Positions 20,467 through 29,671 of a stretch of DNA of 41,363 bases are shown here, one piece after another. The notes beneath the pieces are model-generated. The model worked only from the letters and a program-made list of their open reading frames with translations, made no database searches and was not told the DNA's origin. How positions within the stretch are numbered: the stretch's first letter is position 1; each line of letters begins with the position of its first letter. Made by a program: the position numbers and the translations under genes. The DNA is from an uncultured Curvibacter sp. (lineage in GTDB: Bacteria > Pseudomonadota > Gammaproteobacteria > Burkholderiales > Burkholderiaceae_C): assembly GCA_903902035.1 (NCBI GenBank), contig CAIUTG010000183.1:1-41363 (forward strand), given 5' to 3'.

Positions 20467-21357
20467 ATGAAAAATATCGATCATTTGGACCTGGATGGCC
20501 GTCTGCTCCAACTCTTGGTAACGCTGGTGGAGCTGGGCTCGGTGACCCAAACGGCGCAAAGGATGGACGTGACCCAATCCGCTGTGAGCCACCAACTGGA
20601 CCGGCTGCGGGCCATTGTGGGCGACGAACTGTTTGTGAAATCCGGACGAGGCATCGTCGCCACAGCGCGGGCCGAGGCCCTGGCCGATCAGGCCAAAGCC
20701 TTGCTGGCACAGATGCAGCGCCTAGTTCAAGCCGAGGTGTTTGATGCCAGCCGTTTGAAGCAATGTTTCACCATCGCGGCCAACGATTTGCAACGTGATT
20801 TTTTATTGCCCCAGCTGTTGAACCGCCTGCGGGAACAAGCACCCGGGGTGAGCTTGCGGGTGATTCCTTCCGATGTGCCCACCGCTGAGATGCTGCGCGA
20901 CCAGGCCTGTCAACTCGTGATCAGCCCGCGCCCGCCCGATGCCACCGACATCCGCCACAAACGCCTGTTCACCGACACCTATCGGGTCTTTTTTGACCCC
21001 AGCCAACGCAAGGCACCCCGCTCGCTCAAGGCCTTTGAAGCCGCCGACCATGTGCATGTGGTGCACACGACCCAGCGCAAGCTGGAGATTGATGAAGTGC
21101 TGGAAAAATCAGGCATCACGCGCCAGTTTGCCGTGACCGTCAGCCATTTTGGCGGGGTCGCCGCCTTCATCCAGGGCAGTCAGCGATTGGCCACCTTGCC
21201 CGGGCTGTTGCGCCAGGGCCTGCTCAGGGGCTTGGCCGATGCGCCGCTGCCGATGCCCACCCCAGACATGCCCATGTATGCCATTTGGCATGTGCGCCAC
21301 CAACGCGACCCGGCCCATGCCTGGCTGCGTGGGGCCTTGTTTCAACGAACCGTGTAG
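20467..21357 (+). CDS. LysR-family transcriptional regulator
   Basis: 296 aa; HTH LVTLVELGSVTQTAQRMDVTQSAVSHQLDRLRAIVGDELFVKSGRGIVAT; divergent from ligAB. Confidence 0.92.
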   Translation: MKNIDHLDLDGRLLQLLVTLVELGSVTQTAQRMDVTQSAVSHQLDRLRAIVGDELFVKSGRGIVATARAEALADQAKALLAQMQRLVQAEVFDASRLKQCFTIAANDLQRDFLLPQLLNRLREQAPGVSLRVIPSDVPTAEMLRDQACQLVISPRPPDATDIRHKRLFTDTYRVFFDPSQRKAPRSLKAFEAADHVHVVHTTQRKLEIDEVLEKSGITRQFAVTVSHFGGVAAFIQGSQRLATLPGLLRQGLLRGLADAPLPMPTPDMPMYAIWHVRHQRDPAHAWLRGALFQRTV

Positions 21358-21995
21358 CCGCGCGAATCCATGCACATCGCGAAAGCTTGGTTGTAAGCAT
21401 TCACATTGCCCGCCACATTGGGTTGCGCGGCGGCCCAGTTGCTGCATTGGTTGGCGTCGGCCTGAACCTGGGCGGCGGGCTGACCATTGCGGGGGTAGAT
21501 CATGGGGGCGGCAGGCAGGGCTTGGGGCGCCATGGGAGCGGGCTCAACCTGAGTCGGCACGACCGTTTCAATGCCTTGTGGGGGCTCCACCACCACATAG
21601 CCGCCCGGGGCGGCTTGGTAATAAACCCCGTTGGCGTAGTAGTAGGTCAAGCCGGCAAAAGCCAACACCATCATGTCGACGGGCAACATGGGCACCACCA
21701 AGCCAAAAGACGGACGGGCCACACAGTAATAACCCCCGCAAGGCGAATACCAAATACCGGCATGGTAAAAAAAGCGGCCGTCACCCACTCGAATGGCGGG
21801 GCCCGGCAGGGCGCCAATGCGCACGCCCACCGCTGGGTAAGCCGCAGGCCGACCATGACGGACCTCCATCCCAGGACGACCGCGCTCTTCACGCTCATGG
21901 GGTTCAGCCCAGACAGTCGTTTGAAAAGCCAGCAAGGTGGCGGTCAAAGCCGCCCACTTCAAAACGGGCCCATTGAATTCAAATGTCAATTTCAT
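21342..21995 (-). CDS. Exported Tyr/Gly/Val-rich hypothetical protein (DUF6515-like repeats)
   Basis: 217 aa; signal-like WAALTATLLAFQTTVWA; repeated YY(H/A)xG(I/V)(W/Y)Y...GGYYCV/GGYVVVEPP motifs. Confidence 0.65.
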   Translation of the reverse strand: MKLTFEFNGPVLKWAALTATLLAFQTTVWAEPHEREERGRPGMEVRHGRPAAYPAVGVRIGALPGPAIRVGDGRFFYHAGIWYSPCGGYYCVARPSFGLVVPMLPVDMMVLAFAGLTYYYANGVYYQAAPGGYVVVEPPQGIETVVPTQVEPAPMAPQALPAAPMIYPRNGQPAAQVQADANQCSNWAAAQPNVAGNVNAYNQAFAMCMDSRGYTVR

Positions 21996-22150
21996 GATCG
22001 ATTACTCCAAGATTCAGCGATTCATTTTAGGAGGGGTTGATGAACTAAAGTAAATAATCAGGGCCACATCTCACGCCCTGATCGGATTTATTACACTCAC
22101 TGACGATGCGTGTGTTGGGCCGTTCTTGGTCGATCTACTTTCAAATTTCT

Positions 22151-23380
22151 ATGTGGTTTCGCCGTTTCACCGCCCTGCTGAGTCTGGGACTTGTACTCTT
22201 ATCGGGGTGCGGAGGCGGTGGCAGCTCGTCTTCCGTCACGACCAGCAGCACCTCCAACACAGCCACCCCTTTGGCCGCCAACGCCATCAACGTGCAGGTG
22301 ACCGGTGGCATTCAAGGTGGTTTTTCCAACCTGCTGATGGCGTCGGTCACGGTCTGCATTCACGGCGCCACCCGCTGCCAAACAATTGACAATGTGCAAG
22401 TCGATACCGGCTCAACCGGCCTGCGCCTGCTGGCCTCGGCCTTGAGTGGCCTGGCCTTGCCAGCGATCGCGGGCAACAGCAACGGTTCGACTCTGTACGA
22501 ATGTGCCGACTTTGCCGATGGCGTGGTGTGGGGCCAAATGGCCACTGCCGACGTCAAATTGGCCAGCGAATTGGCCAGCAACCTCCCCATCCAAATCATT
22601 GCAGACACCTCGGCTTTCGCCAGCATGCCCAGAACTTGCAGCGACCTGGGCAGCAACCAAAGCTCTTTGGCGGCCTTGGGCGCGAACGGCATATTGGGTG
22701 TCGGCTTGTTTGCCCAAGATGGTGGCGCTTATTTCTCTTGCACTGCCGCTGGCAGTTGCAGCAGCACTCAGGTGGACACCGCCAACCGTACCAGCAATCC
22801 AGTGGCCAGTTTCAGTACCGACAACAATGGCGTGGTGATTCAATTGCCGGCGGTGGGAACCAGCGGCACGAACAGCCTCAGTGGCAGTTTGATTTTTGGC
22901 ATCAACACCCAAAGCAACAACCAATTGAGCAGCAGCGCCACCGTGATATCGGTCCCCGCCACAGGACCACAGGCGGGCTACTTCAGCGCCACCCTCAATG
23001 GCCTGACCCTGCCCGACAGTTTTCTGGATACGGGTTCCGGTGCTTATTTCTTTGATGACAGCGGCTTGCCGGTGTGCGCCAACAATAGCGATGCAAAAGA
23101 CATGTATTGCCCCGGCAGCAGCCAGGCCGCCTCGCAGCTCAGCCTGAGCGTCAACCTGGCAGGTCATGCGGTGACGGTGAATGTGGCCAACGCCAGTTTT
23201 TTATACCAACAGAGCACCAATGGGGCCGAAAATGCGGTGTTCAGCAACTTGGCTGGCACCACGGGCGGCGTGCTGGGCCAATCGTTTGACTTTGGTCTGC
23301 CCTTCTTCTTTGGCCGCACGGTCTACACCGGTTTTGCCGTGCCTGGCAACACCAGCGGCCCTTATTACGCATTCCAATAA
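22151..23380 (+). CDS. DUF3443-like lipoprotein with two DTGS motifs; candidate pepsin-like aspartic protease
   Basis: 409 aa from ATG 22151; lipobox-like LVLLSGC at N-terminus; NVQVDTGSTGLRLLAS, ANGILGVGLFAQDGG, DSFLDTGSGAYFF, GGVLGQSFDFGLPFFFGRTVYTGFAV. Confidence 0.75.
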   Translation: MWFRRFTALLSLGLVLLSGCGGGGSSSSVTTSSTSNTATPLAANAINVQVTGGIQGGFSNLLMASVTVCIHGATRCQTIDNVQVDTGSTGLRLLASALSGLALPAIAGNSNGSTLYECADFADGVVWGQMATADVKLASELASNLPIQIIADTSAFASMPRTCSDLGSNQSSLAALGANGILGVGLFAQDGGAYFSCTAAGSCSSTQVDTANRTSNPVASFSTDNNGVVIQLPAVGTSGTNSLSGSLIFGINTQSNNQLSSSATVISVPATGPQAGYFSATLNGLTLPDSFLDTGSGAYFFDDSGLPVCANNSDAKDMYCPGSSQAASQLSLSVNLAGHAVTVNVANASFLYQQSTNGAENAVFSNLAGTTGGVLGQSFDFGLPFFFGRTVYTGFAVPGNTSGPYYAFQ

Positions 23381-23407
23381 AAAAGCCACCTGAATCAGGT
23401 GGCTTTT
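23381..23407. terminator. Bidirectional intrinsic terminator between convergent DUF3443-like and HiPIP genes
   Basis: Perfect inverted repeat AAAAGCCACCTGA-A-TCAGGTGGCTTTT starting immediately after the TAA stop at 23380. Confidence 0.9.
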
Positions 23408-23450: not shown

Positions 23451-23741
23451 TTAAGCCTTCTTGGCGAATGCGCTGCACCAACCCTTGGCCGACACTTGCT
23501 TGCCCGCGAACAAGGCGCAACCCCCGGCGGCATCGCCCGCCTTGCCTTGGAACAAGGCGCATTGACCGCAAGCCTGACCGGGCTTGGCTTTGGCAGACTT
23601 GCTGGCGTCAGCCACATAACCCAAGGCAGCGGCTTGAGGGTCTTTTTCGTCCACCATGGCGGCTTCGGCCAGGGTCATCGTGGCCAGAGCGCCAGCGCCC
23701 AAAACGGATTGAATAACGAAGGTACGGCGGTTGGTTTTCAT
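23451..23741 (-). CDS. High-potential iron-sulfur protein (HiPIP) with Tat-like signal
   Basis: MKTNRRTFVIQSVLGAGALATMTLAEA (twin-Arg) then CGQCALFQGKAGDAAGGCALFAGKQVSAKGWCSAF, HiPIP cysteine spacing. Confidence 0.88.
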   Translation of the reverse strand: MKTNRRTFVIQSVLGAGALATMTLAEAAMVDEKDPQAAALGYVADASKSAKAKPGQACGQCALFQGKAGDAAGGCALFAGKQVSAKGWCSAFAKKA

Positions 23742-23857
23742 GAAAGCCTCTTTCAAAGAGTGGTTGCAGTTAAATGGTTCAAGCGCGACGATTCTAGCGA
23801 AATCAACTGAATTTTAGGTTCTCCAACCGCCCTTGCAAGGGCAAACACTGACGCAAG

Positions 23858-25174
23858 TCAAGGAACCGTTTCGTCTATTTCCAGAGCAATCCCGTGGGTC
23901 CCCAGTTTCAAAGCGGCAGATTGCCCTCTCAAATCACCCGACTGGGCCAGGGCCTGGCCCGAATGAGAAATGCGGGCTCGCACCCACACCCGGGCCTCGG
24001 GCGTTTGACGGGCCCATGCCGACAAGGAGGCCGCTGAACTCATGGCCAGGCGGTCATCGAGCTGAAAATCAAGGGTGTGGTTTGGGGCTTGCAGCAAATC
24101 CCGGGCTGGACGGCGCAACACCGCCAAAGGCATGGGCGGGCCATTCACCGCCACGGCCGTGATGAACAGCGTGTCTTGCGGCCCCACCTGTTGCCGCAAG
24201 GCTGGGGCCAAGCTGACATGGCCCTGCAAAACGGCCTGTGCATGCGGAGCCACCGGAGGCGCTGCTTCGGCGGGTCGGGACAAGTCCCCGCCTTTTTGAC
24301 GCGCCGCCGCCATGGCCTGTTGCACCGCCTGAGCCCCCTCAGAACCAGGTGGCAATTGGGCCAGCAAATGGCCCCAATGCACCAAGGCTTGGCTGAAATC
24401 ACCCATGGCAAAAGACACCTGGCCCGCCAGCAACAGGACCCGACTGTTGTTGGGGTCCGCCGCCAACGCGGCTTGAATCAGGCTGGCGGCCTCGCCTTCA
24501 AAATGCCCACCGTGCTGCATCGCCAGCGCCTCCAACCGCTCCAGGTTCAAGACCGGGTCTTGGGTCAAACGGTAAGCCTGCTCAAAACTTTGGGCGGCCA
24601 GCTCGAACTGCCCTTGCGCGCGTTGCACCCGCGCCAACACAATCCAGGCCTCCACGTCCGAGGGCCGACTCGCCAGACGTTTCGACAAGCCTCGCGCCAG
24701 GGCCTGCGGTGACAGGCCATCGGCCTGCGCCAGGGCCATGACATCGGGGTCCATCACATCGGTTTCGCCCCATTGGCGGTACAACCAAAAAGAAAGCGGC
24801 AACAACAGCAGCAAACCCAACACCGTGGCTTGCATGAAACGGGTCAGGCCCTGGGGCCGCTGAGCGGGGGCGGCGAGGGGCGTGGCATCCCCACTCAATT
24901 CACTGCTCAAGCGTTGGGCGATTTCGGCACGCGCCAGCCGCCACTGCGATTCGGACAGCTGACCTGCCGCATGCTCGGCATTCAATTCACCGAGTGCTTC
25001 TTGGTAAATGGCGGCACTGGTTTGGGCCTGGTCATCCAGCGAGGCCTCTGGCCAGTCGGTCTGCGCCATCCGTTGCACCGACGCACGCCACAAAGCACGG
25101 GCCAACACAAGGACCACCACCAAACTCAACAAAACCGACAAGGCCACAAAGGCCGGAGGCGCATTCAGGTTCAT
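23858..25174 (-). CDS. ccmI: c-type cytochrome biogenesis protein CcmI
   Basis: 438 aa; N-terminal TM segments plus TPR-like region (VEAWIVLARVQRAQGQFELAAQSFEQAYRLTQD); last gene of ccm order. Confidence 0.87.
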   Translation of the reverse strand: MNLNAPPAFVALSVLLSLVVVLVLARALWRASVQRMAQTDWPEASLDDQAQTSAAIYQEALGELNAEHAAGQLSESQWRLARAEIAQRLSSELSGDATPLAAPAQRPQGLTRFMQATVLGLLLLLPLSFWLYRQWGETDVMDPDVMALAQADGLSPQALARGLSKRLASRPSDVEAWIVLARVQRAQGQFELAAQSFEQAYRLTQDPVLNLERLEALAMQHGGHFEGEAASLIQAALAADPNNSRVLLLAGQVSFAMGDFSQALVHWGHLLAQLPPGSEGAQAVQQAMAAARQKGGDLSRPAEAAPPVAPHAQAVLQGHVSLAPALRQQVGPQDTLFITAVAVNGPPMPLAVLRRPARDLLQAPNHTLDFQLDDRLAMSSAASLSAWARQTPEARVWVRARISHSGQALAQSGDLRGQSAALKLGTHGIALEIDETVP

Positions 25175-25689
25175 ATTCCATCCCGGTCTTGCAAAACCGC
25201 GTCCACCAAACGCTGGGCCTCGTCACTGAGTGCCATCGGCGCTGGCGGCACCGTGGGCTTGGCGCGACGGGCACGCAAAGCCAGCCAGGCCAAGCCCAAG
25301 CCCAAGCCCAGCAGCGCTGCGGGCCCCCACCAAAGTGCCCAAGTGGTGGGCTTGACCTCGGGTCGGTAGAGCACAAAATCACCATACCGTGCGACCAAAT
25401 AGGCCTTGATCTCGGCATCCGTCTTGCCTTGACGGATCAGGCCACGGACCTCGTCACGCAAGTCTTTCGCCAAATCCGCCCGGGACGAAGCCAGGGTTTC
25501 GTTTTGGCACACCAGGCAACGCAGCTCTTCAGAAATGTGAACCATGCGCGCCTCCACCCAGGGCTCGTCACCCAAGGGAATGGCTTCTTTGGCCAGCACC
25601 GGGCAGGCGCACGTCAAAGCCAGCGCCAGCCAAACAGCCACCCACCAGGACCCGCCCCATGACCGCAGGAAAGTTAGACTCATCTTCAT
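25171..25689 (-). CDS. ccmH: Cytochrome c-type biogenesis protein CcmH
   Basis: ISEELRCLVCQNETLASSRADLAKDLRDEVRGLIRQGKTDAEIKAYLVARYGDFVLYRP. Confidence 0.94.
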   Translation of the reverse strand: MKMSLTFLRSWGGSWWVAVWLALALTCACPVLAKEAIPLGDEPWVEARMVHISEELRCLVCQNETLASSRADLAKDLRDEVRGLIRQGKTDAEIKAYLVARYGDFVLYRPEVKPTTWALWWGPAALLGLGLGLAWLALRARRAKPTVPPAPMALSDEAQRLVDAVLQDRDGI

Positions 25690-26297
25690 GAGGCCTCCGA
25701 CTTTGGCAGAGGCTCGTGTTGCAACTTCTCAATCAGAGGCTTGACGGTTTCCGTCAAAATTTCAGGCGTCAAAACACCCACCACCTTGTAGCGAATCAGG
25801 CCAGCTTTGTCGATGACGTAGCTTTCCGGCACGCCATACACGCCATAGTCCATGCCCACCCGGCCATCGACATCCAGCACCGTGACCGCATAGGGGTTGC
25901 CATGTTTTTTTAGCCAAGCCGCCGTTTTGGTGCGCGCCATTGACAGCCGCGTGGACGCGGACAAGACTTGGCCCGCCTCGTCTTGGTCGGTCTGAATTTC
26001 TTTGTAATTCATGCCCACCACCGGCGCCAAGCCCTGCTGGGCAAACTGCATCAACATGGGGTGCTCTTGCTGGCAGGGCAGGCACCAGGTGGCCCAGACA
26101 TTGAGCAACCACACTTGGCCCTTCATTTGTTCGGGGCTGAAACGGGGGCCCTCTGCCCCCACGGTTTCCAACACAAAAGTGGGGGCGGGGCGGTCGATCA
26201 GGGGCGAGGGAATTTCATGCGGGTCGCGCTTCAGACCCACCGCCAAGAACGCCACCAACGCCAAAAACACAATCAAAGGAATGAGGGCCAAACGCAT
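25686..26297 (-). CDS. ccmG: Thiol:disulfide interchange protein CcmG/DsbE
   Basis: MRLALIPLIVFLALVAFLAVGLKRDPHEIPSPLIDRPAPTFVL...LLNVWATWCLPCQQEHPML (CxxC thioredoxin fold). Confidence 0.93.
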   Translation of the reverse strand: MRLALIPLIVFLALVAFLAVGLKRDPHEIPSPLIDRPAPTFVLETVGAEGPRFSPEQMKGQVWLLNVWATWCLPCQQEHPMLMQFAQQGLAPVVGMNYKEIQTDQDEAGQVLSASTRLSMARTKTAAWLKKHGNPYAVTVLDVDGRVGMDYGVYGVPESYVIDKAGLIRYKVVGVLTPEILTETVKPLIEKLQHEPLPKSEAS

Positions 26298-26307
26298 GGT
26301 CAATCTT

Positions 26308-28251
26308 TCATTTTTGCGATGGCTTTCGATAGCGCCGATCGGCAGCAGCCACCACGCCACCTGCCATCATCAACAAAACCCCCGCCCAAATCCAGGACAC
26401 AAAGGGTTTGTTGTAGACCCGCAAACTCCACTGGGTTTGCGCCGGGTTCATGGGCTCGCCCAAGGAGACATAAAGATCACGCCAGGGGGACACGTCAATC
26501 GCCGCCTGGGTCATGGGCATGGGACTGGAAAAATAGCGTCGTTTCTCGGGGTGCAAAACCGCGACCCTTTGCTCGCCCTGGAAGACCGAGACCTCAGCGC
26601 GTTTGGCGGCGTAATTGGGGCCCGGCACTTCTTGAACACCGTCCAACACAAAATGGTAAGTTTGCAAATTCAGGGTGTCGCCCAAACCCATGCTCACATC
26701 GCGCTCGACCTCATAGCCTTTGACCAAGGTGATCCCCAACACCAGCACGGCCAAGCCCAAATGGGCCAGGTGCATGCCCAAAAATCCCATCGACACCCGG
26801 CCGGGGGCCCACCAACGCGGCATCAAATGCTGCAGGGTACCGGCGGCCACCCAGGTCGCCAGCCCCACGCCCAAAGTCACGCCCGGCGACCAAAGCGAAA
26901 CACCCAGGGCGTGCCCCAACCACGCGGGCACCAGCAGCCCCACCGACCCGCTCAGCAAGACCAAAGGCCAGAGTCGGCGCAAAACCACCCCCCACTCGGT
27001 GTCTTTCCAGGTCGCCACCACGCCGGGCACCAAGAGCAACAAAACCGGCACCATCAGCGGCACAAAAACCAGGTTGAAGTAAGGGGCTCCGACCGATAAT
27101 TTGCCCAGATTCAAGGCATCAATCACCATCGGGTAGACCGTGCCCAGCAAGACCGCCGCGCAGGCCACCACCAAGAACACGCTGTTCAACAACAACAAGG
27201 TTTCGCGCAACACCGGGGTGCCCGCTACCGCCTTCAGCTTGGGCGCACGCCAGGCAAACAAGGTCAGCGAGGTGCCGACCACCAAGGCCAAAAAGACCAG
27301 AATAAACACGCCCCGCTTGGGGTCCGAAGCAAAGGCGTGCACCGAGTTGAGCACGCCCGAGCGAACCAAAAACGTGCCCAGCAACGACAAAGAAAACGCC
27401 GCAATCGCCAGCAACACGGTCCAGGCTTTGAAGCCGCCGCGCTTTTCGGTCATCATCAAAGAGTGCAACAAGGCCGTGCCACACAGCCAGGGCAAGAGCG
27501 AGGCGTTCTCCACCGGGTCCCAAAACCACCACCCCCCCCAACCCAACACGTTGTAGGCCCACCAGGAACCCAGGCCAATGCCAAAGGACATGAAGACCCA
27601 GGCCACCAAGGTCCAGGGCCGCGACCAACGCGCCCAAGCCACATCGAGCCGCCCCGACAACAGGGCCGCAATGGCAAAGGCAAAGGCCACCGAAAAACCC
27701 ACATAGCCCATGTAAAGCATGGGGGGGTGAATCACCAAGGCCGGGTCTTGCAGCAAGGGGTTCAGGTCTTTGCCCTCTTGCAAGGCGGGCACCAAACGCT
27801 CGAAGGGGTTGGAGGTGGTGAGGATGAACAGCAAAAAGCCCATCGCCACAAAGCCGAGCACCGACAGCACCCGCGCCACCATCGGCAAAGGCAGTGGTTT
27901 GGAAAACACCGCCACGGCCAAGCCCCAGAGGCTCAAAATTTCGACCCACAGCAACAGCGACCCCTCATGCCCGCCCCAAATGGCAGCGAACTGGTAGTGC
28001 GCGGGCAGCAGTGAATTGGAATGCTCGGACACATAGCGAACCGAAAAATCATTGCTCAAAAACGCGGCGGCCAGACTGGCGAACGCCAAGCTGATCAACA
28101 CAAACAACAGCACCGCACAGGGCCGCGCCAGGGCCTGCCAAAGGGCCATGCGCGAAGCCGGCTTCAAGGTGCCCAGCAGAGGCAGAACGGCCTGGATCAG
28201 GGACACCCCCAGCGCCAGAATCAAACAAAAATGCCCCAGTTCAACCCACAT
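26308..28251 (-). CDS. ccmF: Heme lyase CcmF
   Basis: 647 aa; AIWGGHEGSLLLWVEILSLWG, WGGWWFWDPVENASLLPWLCGTALLHS. Confidence 0.95.
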   Translation of the reverse strand: MWVELGHFCLILALGVSLIQAVLPLLGTLKPASRMALWQALARPCAVLLFVLISLAFASLAAAFLSNDFSVRYVSEHSNSLLPAHYQFAAIWGGHEGSLLLWVEILSLWGLAVAVFSKPLPLPMVARVLSVLGFVAMGFLLFILTTSNPFERLVPALQEGKDLNPLLQDPALVIHPPMLYMGYVGFSVAFAFAIAALLSGRLDVAWARWSRPWTLVAWVFMSFGIGLGSWWAYNVLGWGGWWFWDPVENASLLPWLCGTALLHSLMMTEKRGGFKAWTVLLAIAAFSLSLLGTFLVRSGVLNSVHAFASDPKRGVFILVFLALVVGTSLTLFAWRAPKLKAVAGTPVLRETLLLLNSVFLVVACAAVLLGTVYPMVIDALNLGKLSVGAPYFNLVFVPLMVPVLLLLVPGVVATWKDTEWGVVLRRLWPLVLLSGSVGLLVPAWLGHALGVSLWSPGVTLGVGLATWVAAGTLQHLMPRWWAPGRVSMGFLGMHLAHLGLAVLVLGITLVKGYEVERDVSMGLGDTLNLQTYHFVLDGVQEVPGPNYAAKRAEVSVFQGEQRVAVLHPEKRRYFSSPMPMTQAAIDVSPWRDLYVSLGEPMNPAQTQWSLRVYNKPFVSWIWAGVLLMMAGGVVAAADRRYRKPSQK

Positions 28252-28287
28252 AAGAACCCACTTTCGAACTGCCCTTCAAAGCGACGC

Positions 28288-28740
28288 TCAAGGCGAATTG
28301 GCCAGCTTGCCGGCCAGTTTTCTGGCGGCCGCATCGTCCAAGGCCTGCTTGGCTTCGGGTGGCATGTAGTTCTCGTCGTGTTTGGCCAACACCTCCGAGG
28401 CAACGAATTGACCCTGGGCGTTGAGTTGGCCCTGAGCCACCACCCCCCGACCTTCTTTGAACAAATCGGGCAGCAAGCCGTCATACACCACCACCGCATC
28501 GTGGCGGGTGTCGGTCACCACGAAGGACACCTGCATGCCCTGGCGCTGCAAACTGCCCTCCTTGACCATGCCCCCCACCCGGAACACCTGGCCGTGCGGG
28601 GCCTGGCCCGACTGAATTTGGCTGGGCGTAAAAAAGAACACCAGATTGCTTTGGAAGGCGTTCAAGACAAAGTAGGCGGCAGCGCCCAAGGCCAGCAGGC
28701 CAATTCCAATGAACAAAAGACGTTGATGACGAGGTTTCAT
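28288..28740 (-). CDS. ccmE: Cytochrome c maturation heme chaperone CcmE
   Basis: MKPRHQRLLFIGIGLLALGAAAYFVLNAFQSNLVFFFTPSQI...FRVGGMVKEGSLQRQ...LAKHDENYMPPE (heme-binding His/Tyr motif). Confidence 0.95.
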   Translation of the reverse strand: MKPRHQRLLFIGIGLLALGAAAYFVLNAFQSNLVFFFTPSQIQSGQAPHGQVFRVGGMVKEGSLQRQGMQVSFVVTDTRHDAVVVYDGLLPDLFKEGRGVVAQGQLNAQGQFVASEVLAKHDENYMPPEAKQALDDAAARKLAGKLANSP

Positions 28741-28913
28741 GGGGTCTGATTGTCGCTGAGTTCGTTGGCCAGAATTTGCCCTGTCCGGCGCGTGGTGCGG
28801 CGGGCTTGAAGCACTTCCAGCGCCAAAGCAGCCAGCACCGCACCGTAGCTCCCCCAAACATAAAAGCCATAGCCGCCCATGGCCCAAAAAGCCTCTGAAT
28901 TCGCCCAGTTCAT
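28737..28913 (-). CDS. ccmD: Heme exporter protein CcmD
   Basis: 58 aa MNWANSEAFWAMGGYGFYVWGSYGAVLAALALEVLQARRTTRR; overlaps ccmE and ccmC starts/stops. Confidence 0.88.
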   Translation of the reverse strand: MNWANSEAFWAMGGYGFYVWGSYGAVLAALALEVLQARRTTRRTGQILANELSDNQTP

Positions 28914-29671
28914 GCCACTGCCTCCCATTCATTCTGCCGGACTCTGACCAGGTCTTGCACCCAAGCCGTCTCATGCTCACGCACCAGAATCAAGCTGCGG
29001 ACCCGGTACAAAGCCATGCCAATGGCATACGCCCAGCAGGCCAGGGTCACCAACAACAGGCTCCACAACATCGTCTGTGCCATGCTCGGGGCCCGGGTCA
29101 TGGAAATGCTGGCCCCCTGGTGCAAGGTGTTCCACCATTTGACCGAAAAATAAATGATGGGCACATTGATCACCCCGACCAAGGCCACCAAGGCCCCGGC
29201 CTGATCCCGCCGGCGGGGGTCATCAATCGCGCGGGTCAAGGCCAGATAACCCGCATACAAAAACAACAAAATCAGCTCGGAAGTCAGGCGCGCATCCCAA
29301 ACCCACCAGGTGCCCCACATGGGCTTGCCCCACAACGCGCCGGTCCACAAGGACAAAAAGCAAAACAGGGCGCCTGTCGGTGCCAGGGCTTGGGCCATCA
29401 AACCGGAGAGCCGGGTTTTAAAGCCCAAGCCCAAAGCCGACCAAAAAGCCATGGCCCCATAAATCACCATCGACATCCACGATGCGGGCACATGGATGAA
29501 GATGATGCGGTAGGCCTCACCCTGCTGGGCATCGGTCGGGGCCACAAAAAAACCCAGGTACAAACCCGCCAGGCCCAGCAAGGCCGCGAGCACAAAACAA
29601 AGGGGATAGAGCCGTCCCGCCAGACCATAAAACCGCTGCGGCGACGCATATTGAAGCCAAGGCAAAACCAT
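28910..29671 (-). CDS. ccmC: Heme ABC exporter permease CcmC
   Basis: 253 aa; IIFIHVPASWMSMVIYGAMAFWSALGL, WGTWWVWDARLTSELILLFLYAGYLAL. Confidence 0.95.
   Translation of the reverse strand: MVLPWLQYASPQRFYGLAGRLYPLCFVLAALLGLAGLYLGFFVAPTDAQQGEAYRIIFIHVPASWMSMVIYGAMAFWSALGLGFKTRLSGLMAQALAPTGALFCFLSLWTGALWGKPMWGTWWVWDARLTSELILLFLYAGYLALTRAIDDPRRRDQAGALVALVGVINVPIIYFSVKWWNTLHQGASISMTRAPSMAQTMLWSLLLVTLACWAYAIGMALYRVRSLILVREHETAWVQDLVRVRQNEWEAVA

Follow-up and report, generated by a model that had tools for sequence, protein, structure and literature searches.

Background

Bilobal homologues of pepsin have been described by Rawlings and Bateman in seven bacterial genomes among more than 960 prokaryote genomes, and all of these proteins are without signal peptides (PMC2761423). 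Shewasin D has been shown to accumulate in the cytoplasm (PMC4814920). Exported bacterial aspartic peptidases in the literature that was searched are retropepsin-like; the Rlo proteases of Pseudomonas aeruginosa carry signal peptides, and one of them is encoded in an operon with partner genes (PMC12239564).

The locus reported here lies on a stretch of 41,363 nucleotides from an uncultured Curvibacter sp. (contig CAIUTG010000183.1), hereafter the window. An earlier note, made from the sequence alone, had proposed that one of its open reading frames encodes a DUF3443-like lipoprotein with the layout of a bilobal pepsin-type aspartic protease. The family concerned, PF11925, has so far been labelled only as being of unknown function (DUF3443), and public plasmid records name the genes of the pair described below merely DUF3443 and DUF2844. 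Our search of the open-access literature found DUF3443, PF11925 and DUF2844 unmentioned; an assignment in subscription journals, MEROPS or the Pfam clan tables is possible. We carried out a computational analysis of the gene, its family, its predicted fold and its genomic neighbourhood.

Methods

Homologues were gathered from GTDB genomes and aligned (106 DUF3443 sequences from Burkholderiales, other Pseudomonadota and Acidobacteriota, the nearest being approximately 40-50% identical to the window protein). Matches to PF11925 were judged against its curated cut-off of 25 bits. The structure was predicted using AlphaFold2, template-free, from a 61-sequence alignment; a model residue number equals the protein residue number minus 40. 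Gene neighbours were surveyed by targeted searches, after an all-against-all clustering of the adjacent ORFs had been confounded by overlapping high-GC frames. As a control for the DUF2844 search, the gene was recovered in 6/6 positive genomes; the three negative genomes were 93-98% complete.

Results

The gene and its lipoprotein signal

22151..23380, + strand: DUF3443 lipoprotein gene, predicted pepsin-fold aspartic protease, 409 aa (PF11925, AlphaFold2 model, Foldseek)
22151..22210, + strand: signal peptide and lipobox MWFRRFTALLSLGLVLLSGC20, Gly at +2 (sequence, alignment)
22211..22270, + strand: Gly/Ser/Thr-rich linker from the lipid anchor to the domain (sequence)
22721..22723, + strand: codon 191, Gly in place of Cys (Cys in 104/106 DUF3443 sequences; the partner Cys column is gapped too)

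The frame at 22151-23380 (+) runs without an internal stop, and its translation of 409 residues matched PF11925 at an E-value of 4.6e-106 (355 bits) over profile positions 3-367 of 367. Sequence comparison assigns the window protein to DUF3443 over its full length. Other Pfam families were not matched even at E 10, a match to an arsenate reductase model in NCBIfam was discarded as due to chance, and searches of the PDB by sequence, with either the single protein or the 61-sequence profile as query, returned chance matches only. An alternative ATG upstream at 22106 is possible and would place 15 residues ahead of the lipoprotein signal; the start at 22151 leads to a canonical lipoprotein signal (MWFRRFTALLSLGLVLLSGC).

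The N-terminus, described earlier as lipobox-like, carries a signal peptide and the lipobox LLSGC20 with its Cys, as expected of a bacterial lipoprotein that would be lipidated at this residue. Cys20 is aligned in 99 of the 106 homologues and is followed by Gly in 95 of these 99, so that the reading of the ORF as a DUF3443-like lipoprotein was upheld. The cysteine columns of the alignment are mostly near-invariant and, together with the lipobox, fit an exported protein; DUF3443 is very probably an exported lipoprotein family. The linker is too short for a pepsin-type propeptide.

Cys191 and a second near-invariant Cys a few columns on are both absent from only two of the 106 sequences, the window protein and one other (L101). 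This paired loss suggests that the two residues form a disulfide with each other. The site of the probable lost disulfide (22721-22735 in the window, and its equivalent in L101) adjoins the first hydrophobic-hydrophobic-Gly element described below.

Putative catalytic motifs and their conservation

22403..22414, + strand: lobe-1 catalytic motif D85-T-G-S88 (Asp 105/105, Ser 105/105; Asp ends model strand E36-45)
22490..22534, + strand: flap-like beta-hairpin TLYECADF121-ADGVVWG128 (model E74-81/E84-97; register by inspection)
22685..22699, + strand: lobe-1 hydrophobic-hydrophobic-Gly element N-G-I-L-G183 (Gly180 105/106, Gly183 106/106; model strand E140-144)
23027..23038, + strand: lobe-2 catalytic motif D293-T-G-S296 (Asp, Gly and Ser/Thr296 each 106/106; Asp right after model strand E245-252)
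23285..23317, + strand: lobe-2 hydrophobic-hydrophobic-Gly element and helix F379-D-F-G382-L383-PFFFGR389 (Gly382 106/106; model EE-HHHH, then strand 350-354)

The two DTGS motifs were found exactly where they had been placed, with Asp codons at 22403 (residue 85, NVQVDTGSTGLRLL) and 23027 (residue 293, DSFLDTGSGAYFF) and exactly 208 residues between them. Loss of either Asp in the family had been named beforehand as one of the refuting outcomes, and no variation was found at Asp85 (105/105) or Asp293 (106/106); Arg92 (105/105) and Gly295 (106/106) are likewise invariant. On this alignment, the conservation of the motifs is far beyond chance. Each lobe contributes one putative catalytic Asp, set in a D-[ST]-G motif as in A1, with a lobe-1 consensus of D-[TS]-[GA]-S in which Gly is replaced by Ala (D-T-A-S) in 15 of the 106 sequences, mostly from Caballeronia.

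Each lobe also has the hydrophobic-hydrophobic-Gly element of A1 (ILG183 and DFG382). The segment reported between the motifs, ANGILGVG, is present at residues 178-185 and its Gly183 is invariant. A pepsin-like block near the C-terminus is present as well, but the choice of GVLG (373-376) as the counterpart of pepsin WILGD was wrong, this stretch being poorly conserved. The conserved counterpart of pepsin ILGD-VFIRQ-YYTVFD is DFG-LPFFFGR-TVYTGF, which forms strand-Gly-helix-strand in the model. Position -2 to Gly382 is Asp in 101/106, and this second element is loose by sequence and fits by its modelled secondary structure.

Residue 121, at the tip of the putative flap and in the place of pepsin Tyr75 when the register is set by inspection, is aromatic in all 105 sequences compared (Phe in 99, Tyr in 6). 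The position of pepsin Trp39 is taken by the invariant Arg92 and that of pepsin Asp303 mostly by Leu383 (99/106). A prediction of the pH optimum from Leu383 was dropped, as the Shewanella homologues share the replacement and yet shewasin D is active in acid.

Predicted fold and relation to A1

The AlphaFold2 model was obtained with a mean pLDDT of 91.9 and a pTM of 0.92. Foldseek returned 500 PDB matches at E ≤ 0.001, of which the best 50 are all A1 aspartic proteases, endothiapepsin, rhizopuspepsin, renin and BACE1 among them (best E 7.8e-11), in alignments spanning approximately 400 columns, i.e. both lobes. These results agree with the bilobal pepsin-type layout proposed earlier and argue strongly against an unrelated fold, and going by the model DUF3443 almost certainly has the bilobal pepsin fold. 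The TM-scores are moderate (approximately 0.5-0.6, rmsd approximately 7-8 Å), which indicates that the loops and the lobe orientation differ from those of eukaryotic pepsins.

The order of elements in the model is that of pepsin: a strand ending in D85TGS, the flap hairpin (model 74-81/84-97), the NG-ILG183 strand, a strand leading to D293TGS, and the DFG382 strand-helix-strand, with the helix at 383-386 and the last strand at 390-394 in protein numbering. Spacings in DUF3443 and pepsin are, respectively, 36 and 43 residues from the first Asp to the flap aromatic, 98 and 90 from the first Asp to the first motif Gly, 208 and 183 between the two Asp, and 89 and 87 from the second Asp to the second motif Gly.

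Searches by sequence and profile gave no significant match to A1. None of 61 DUF3443 members matched PF00026 at E 10, and the sub-significant Pfam touches among them (E 0.07-0.09) comprised three to Asp_protease_2 (best E 0.09) and one to gag-asp_proteas. When DUF3443 was compared by hhalign with an A1 alignment of pepsin and seven bacterial A1 homologues, the DTGS region alone was aligned (E 0.026), in a register that places DUF3443 lobe 1 on pepsin lobe 2; lobe 1 against the family's own lobe 2 likewise aligned the DTGS segment only (E 0.013). Since sequence comparison alone fails to reach A1, we treat DUF3443 as a separate pepsin-fold family outside A1. PF00026 itself was found in 7/399 genomes of the phylum.

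Genomic neighbourhood

21342-21995, - strand: DUF6515 gene, exported protein, divergent (profile search)
23381..23407, no strand assigned: A/T-ended inverted repeat, a likely terminator common to the DUF3443 and HiPIP genes (sequence AAAAAGCCACCTGAATCAGGTGGCTTTT)
23451-23756, - strand: HiPIP (high-potential iron-sulfur protein) gene, convergent (profile search)

The DUF3443 gene of the window is solitary, with the divergent DUF6515 gene upstream and the convergent HiPIP gene downstream. The inverted repeat was not called by the terminator scan. The HiPIP gene adjoins a cytochrome c biogenesis cluster at 23858-29668 (-), with CcmH/CcmG/CcmF-like ORFs recognised by eye and a cytochrome c assembly protein by Pfam.

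Elsewhere, a DUF2844 gene (PF11005) lies directly upstream of DUF3443 in 79/83 loci. Three of the four exceptions end at a contig edge and the fourth is the window, which gives 79 of the 80 loci with room. Across 200 genomes from the GTDB family of the window, DUF3443 occurs in 19, DUF2844 in 17 and both together in 16, where approximately 1.6 would be expected (hypergeometric P ~1e-19; the genomes are related and hence not independent). The pair stands directly behind cheR-cheD-cheB-cheY-cheZ in 27 loci, nearly all of them from Caballeronia. Plasmid pBGF2 of Burkholderia glumae has the pair between cheZ and flhB, a VOC gene intervening and flhB-flhA following. In one clade, the adjacent chemotaxis operon may place the pair in a context of motility or the cell surface.

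Tandem DUF3443 copies, mostly behind a single DUF2844, were seen in six loci (L006, L007, L053, L092, L094, L104), of which L053 has two consecutive pairs, and suggest local duplication. In two further loci (L102, L103) DUF3443 is split across two frames, probably through gene decay or errors in the sequence. Two genomes have an additional DUF2844 copy, of weak score, apart from any DUF3443 (G327:C1:3125242-3125616 and G440:C7:30785-31156).

DUF2844 was not detected anywhere in the window genome or in two relatives from its family (G388 and G328), and the DUF3443 motifs are intact in all three. On the tree its absence needs three changes, at least two of them on well-supported branches; DUF2844 was lost independently at least twice. 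Its absence from three genomes with intact DUF3443 indicates that it is not essential for DUF3443, and we regard it as a dedicated but dispensable partner.

Members of the DUF2844 family carry signal peptides. The DUF2844 model (alpha-beta4-alpha-beta3, pLDDT 88.6, pTM 0.83) had no significant Foldseek match in the PDB; the best, at E 0.07-0.10, include DUF2874 and BLIP-like (beta-lactamase-inhibitor-like) structures, so the hits stay short of identifying a PepSY/BLIP-like inhibitor (best E 0.07). A touch on PepSY_2 was seen for a single member (E 0.05); with no match among 53 mature-domain members, a PepSY identity was not upheld.

Discussion

On the model and the invariant motifs, DUF3443 is likely to be an active aspartic protease of the pepsin type. 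The window protein is most likely anchored in the outer membrane, facing the periplasm or the surface; regulation of the family by DUF2844 is possible. The signal peptide would be cut at the lipobox and Cys20 lipidated, probably placing the anchor in the outer membrane, with a flexible linker of approximately 20 residues tethering a disulfide-rich, two-lobed monomeric domain. Asp85 and Asp293, each on a psi-loop completed by ILG183 or DFG382, would meet in the interlobe cleft and activate a water molecule, and the flap hairpin with Phe121 at its tip would close over a bound peptide, which would then be cleaved. There would be no propeptide, and in most carriers the small exported DUF2844 protein encoded upstream would be the likely regulator, as an inhibitor or a folding helper. 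In the window organism the enzyme would work without it.

Not every protein with the pepsin fold is an active enzyme; the plant xylanase inhibitors (TAXI), for example, are not. DUF3443 could similarly be a binding or scaffold lipoprotein in which the Asp dyad is kept for structural reasons (the fireman's grip), given that the evidence is one of fold, that lobe 1 reads D-T-A-S in 15/106, that Arg92 replaces pepsin Trp39 and that the partner, DUF2844, is an unusual one. We consider this rather unlikely, as both Asp are invariant throughout the 106 sequences and the flap aromatic is kept as Phe or Tyr in 105/105. In reviewed pepsin-like proteins in which a catalytic Asp is replaced, the psi-loop conformation is essentially unchanged (PMC11313796), so structural constraint by itself would not be expected to hold both Asp of DUF3443 invariant. 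Local convergence, i.e. two chance DTGS motifs on an unrelated fold, would account for the absence of significant sequence similarity to A1 families, but it is barely credible beside a confident template-free model whose best 50 PDB matches are all A1 over both lobes, and motifs that are invariant family-wide.

A further reading, compatible with a pepsin-type protease, takes DUF2844 and DUF3443 together, and not the protease by itself, as a two-component functional unit. DUF2844 would serve as an inhibitor, as a folding helper acting in trans or as the main substrate, and the window would hold a reduced form. This reading draws on the pairing in 79/80 loci with room, the presence of DUF3443 in 16/17 DUF2844 genomes, the DUF2844 signal peptide, the non-significant DUF2874/BLIP-like matches and the single PepSY_2 touch. 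Against it stand the losses of DUF2844, at least two of them independent, which leave DUF3443 intact in three genomes, and the lack of PepSY support in other DUF2844 members; we hold it to be possible but doubtful. The narrower proposal that DUF2844 is an inhibitor or folding partner of DUF3443 is put forward equally tentatively. More speculative still is that DUF3443 is a new exported, lipid-anchored pepsin-type family whose propeptide-like control has moved to DUF2844, making a two-gene equivalent of a pepsin zymogen, with the control protein dropped in some lineages including that of the window.

If DUF3443 is indeed an active protease, pepsin-type proteolysis would be placed in the bacterial envelope by a widespread exported, lipid-anchored and disulfide-rich family that is present in Burkholderia and relatives. 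It would also offer fresh material on the origin of the two-lobed aspartic enzyme, and two labels of unknown function, DUF3443 and DUF2844, would gain testable roles.

Among other DUF3443 (PF11925) proteins, the window copy stands apart by being without DUF2844 and without one near-invariant cysteine pair. The family resembles A1 (pepsin, endothiapepsin, renin, BACE1; PF00026) in its bilobal model, two D-[ST]-G-S/T motifs, two hydrophobic-hydrophobic-Gly elements, similar spacings and a putative flap hairpin with an aromatic tip (register by inspection). It differs in having no sequence-level match to A1, in being a bacterial lipoprotein with no propeptide and with other cysteines, and in its residues at the positions of pepsin Trp39 (Arg) and Asp303 (Leu), with lobe 1 sometimes reading D-T-A-S. 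With shewasins A and D (PMC2761423, PMC4814920) it shares a bacterial origin, two lobes, both Asp and the lack of a propeptide, and Leu at the Asp303 position is shared with the Shewanella and Colwellia pepsin homologues; unlike the shewasins and other bacterial A1 homologues, DUF3443 is exported, lipid-anchored (as predicted), cysteine-rich and usually paired with DUF2844. Like Rlo (PMC12239564) and APRc of Rickettsia (PMC4140852), it is a predicted exported or envelope aspartic peptidase of bacteria, but whereas those are retropepsin-like with one catalytic motif per chain, DUF3443 carries both lobes in a single chain.
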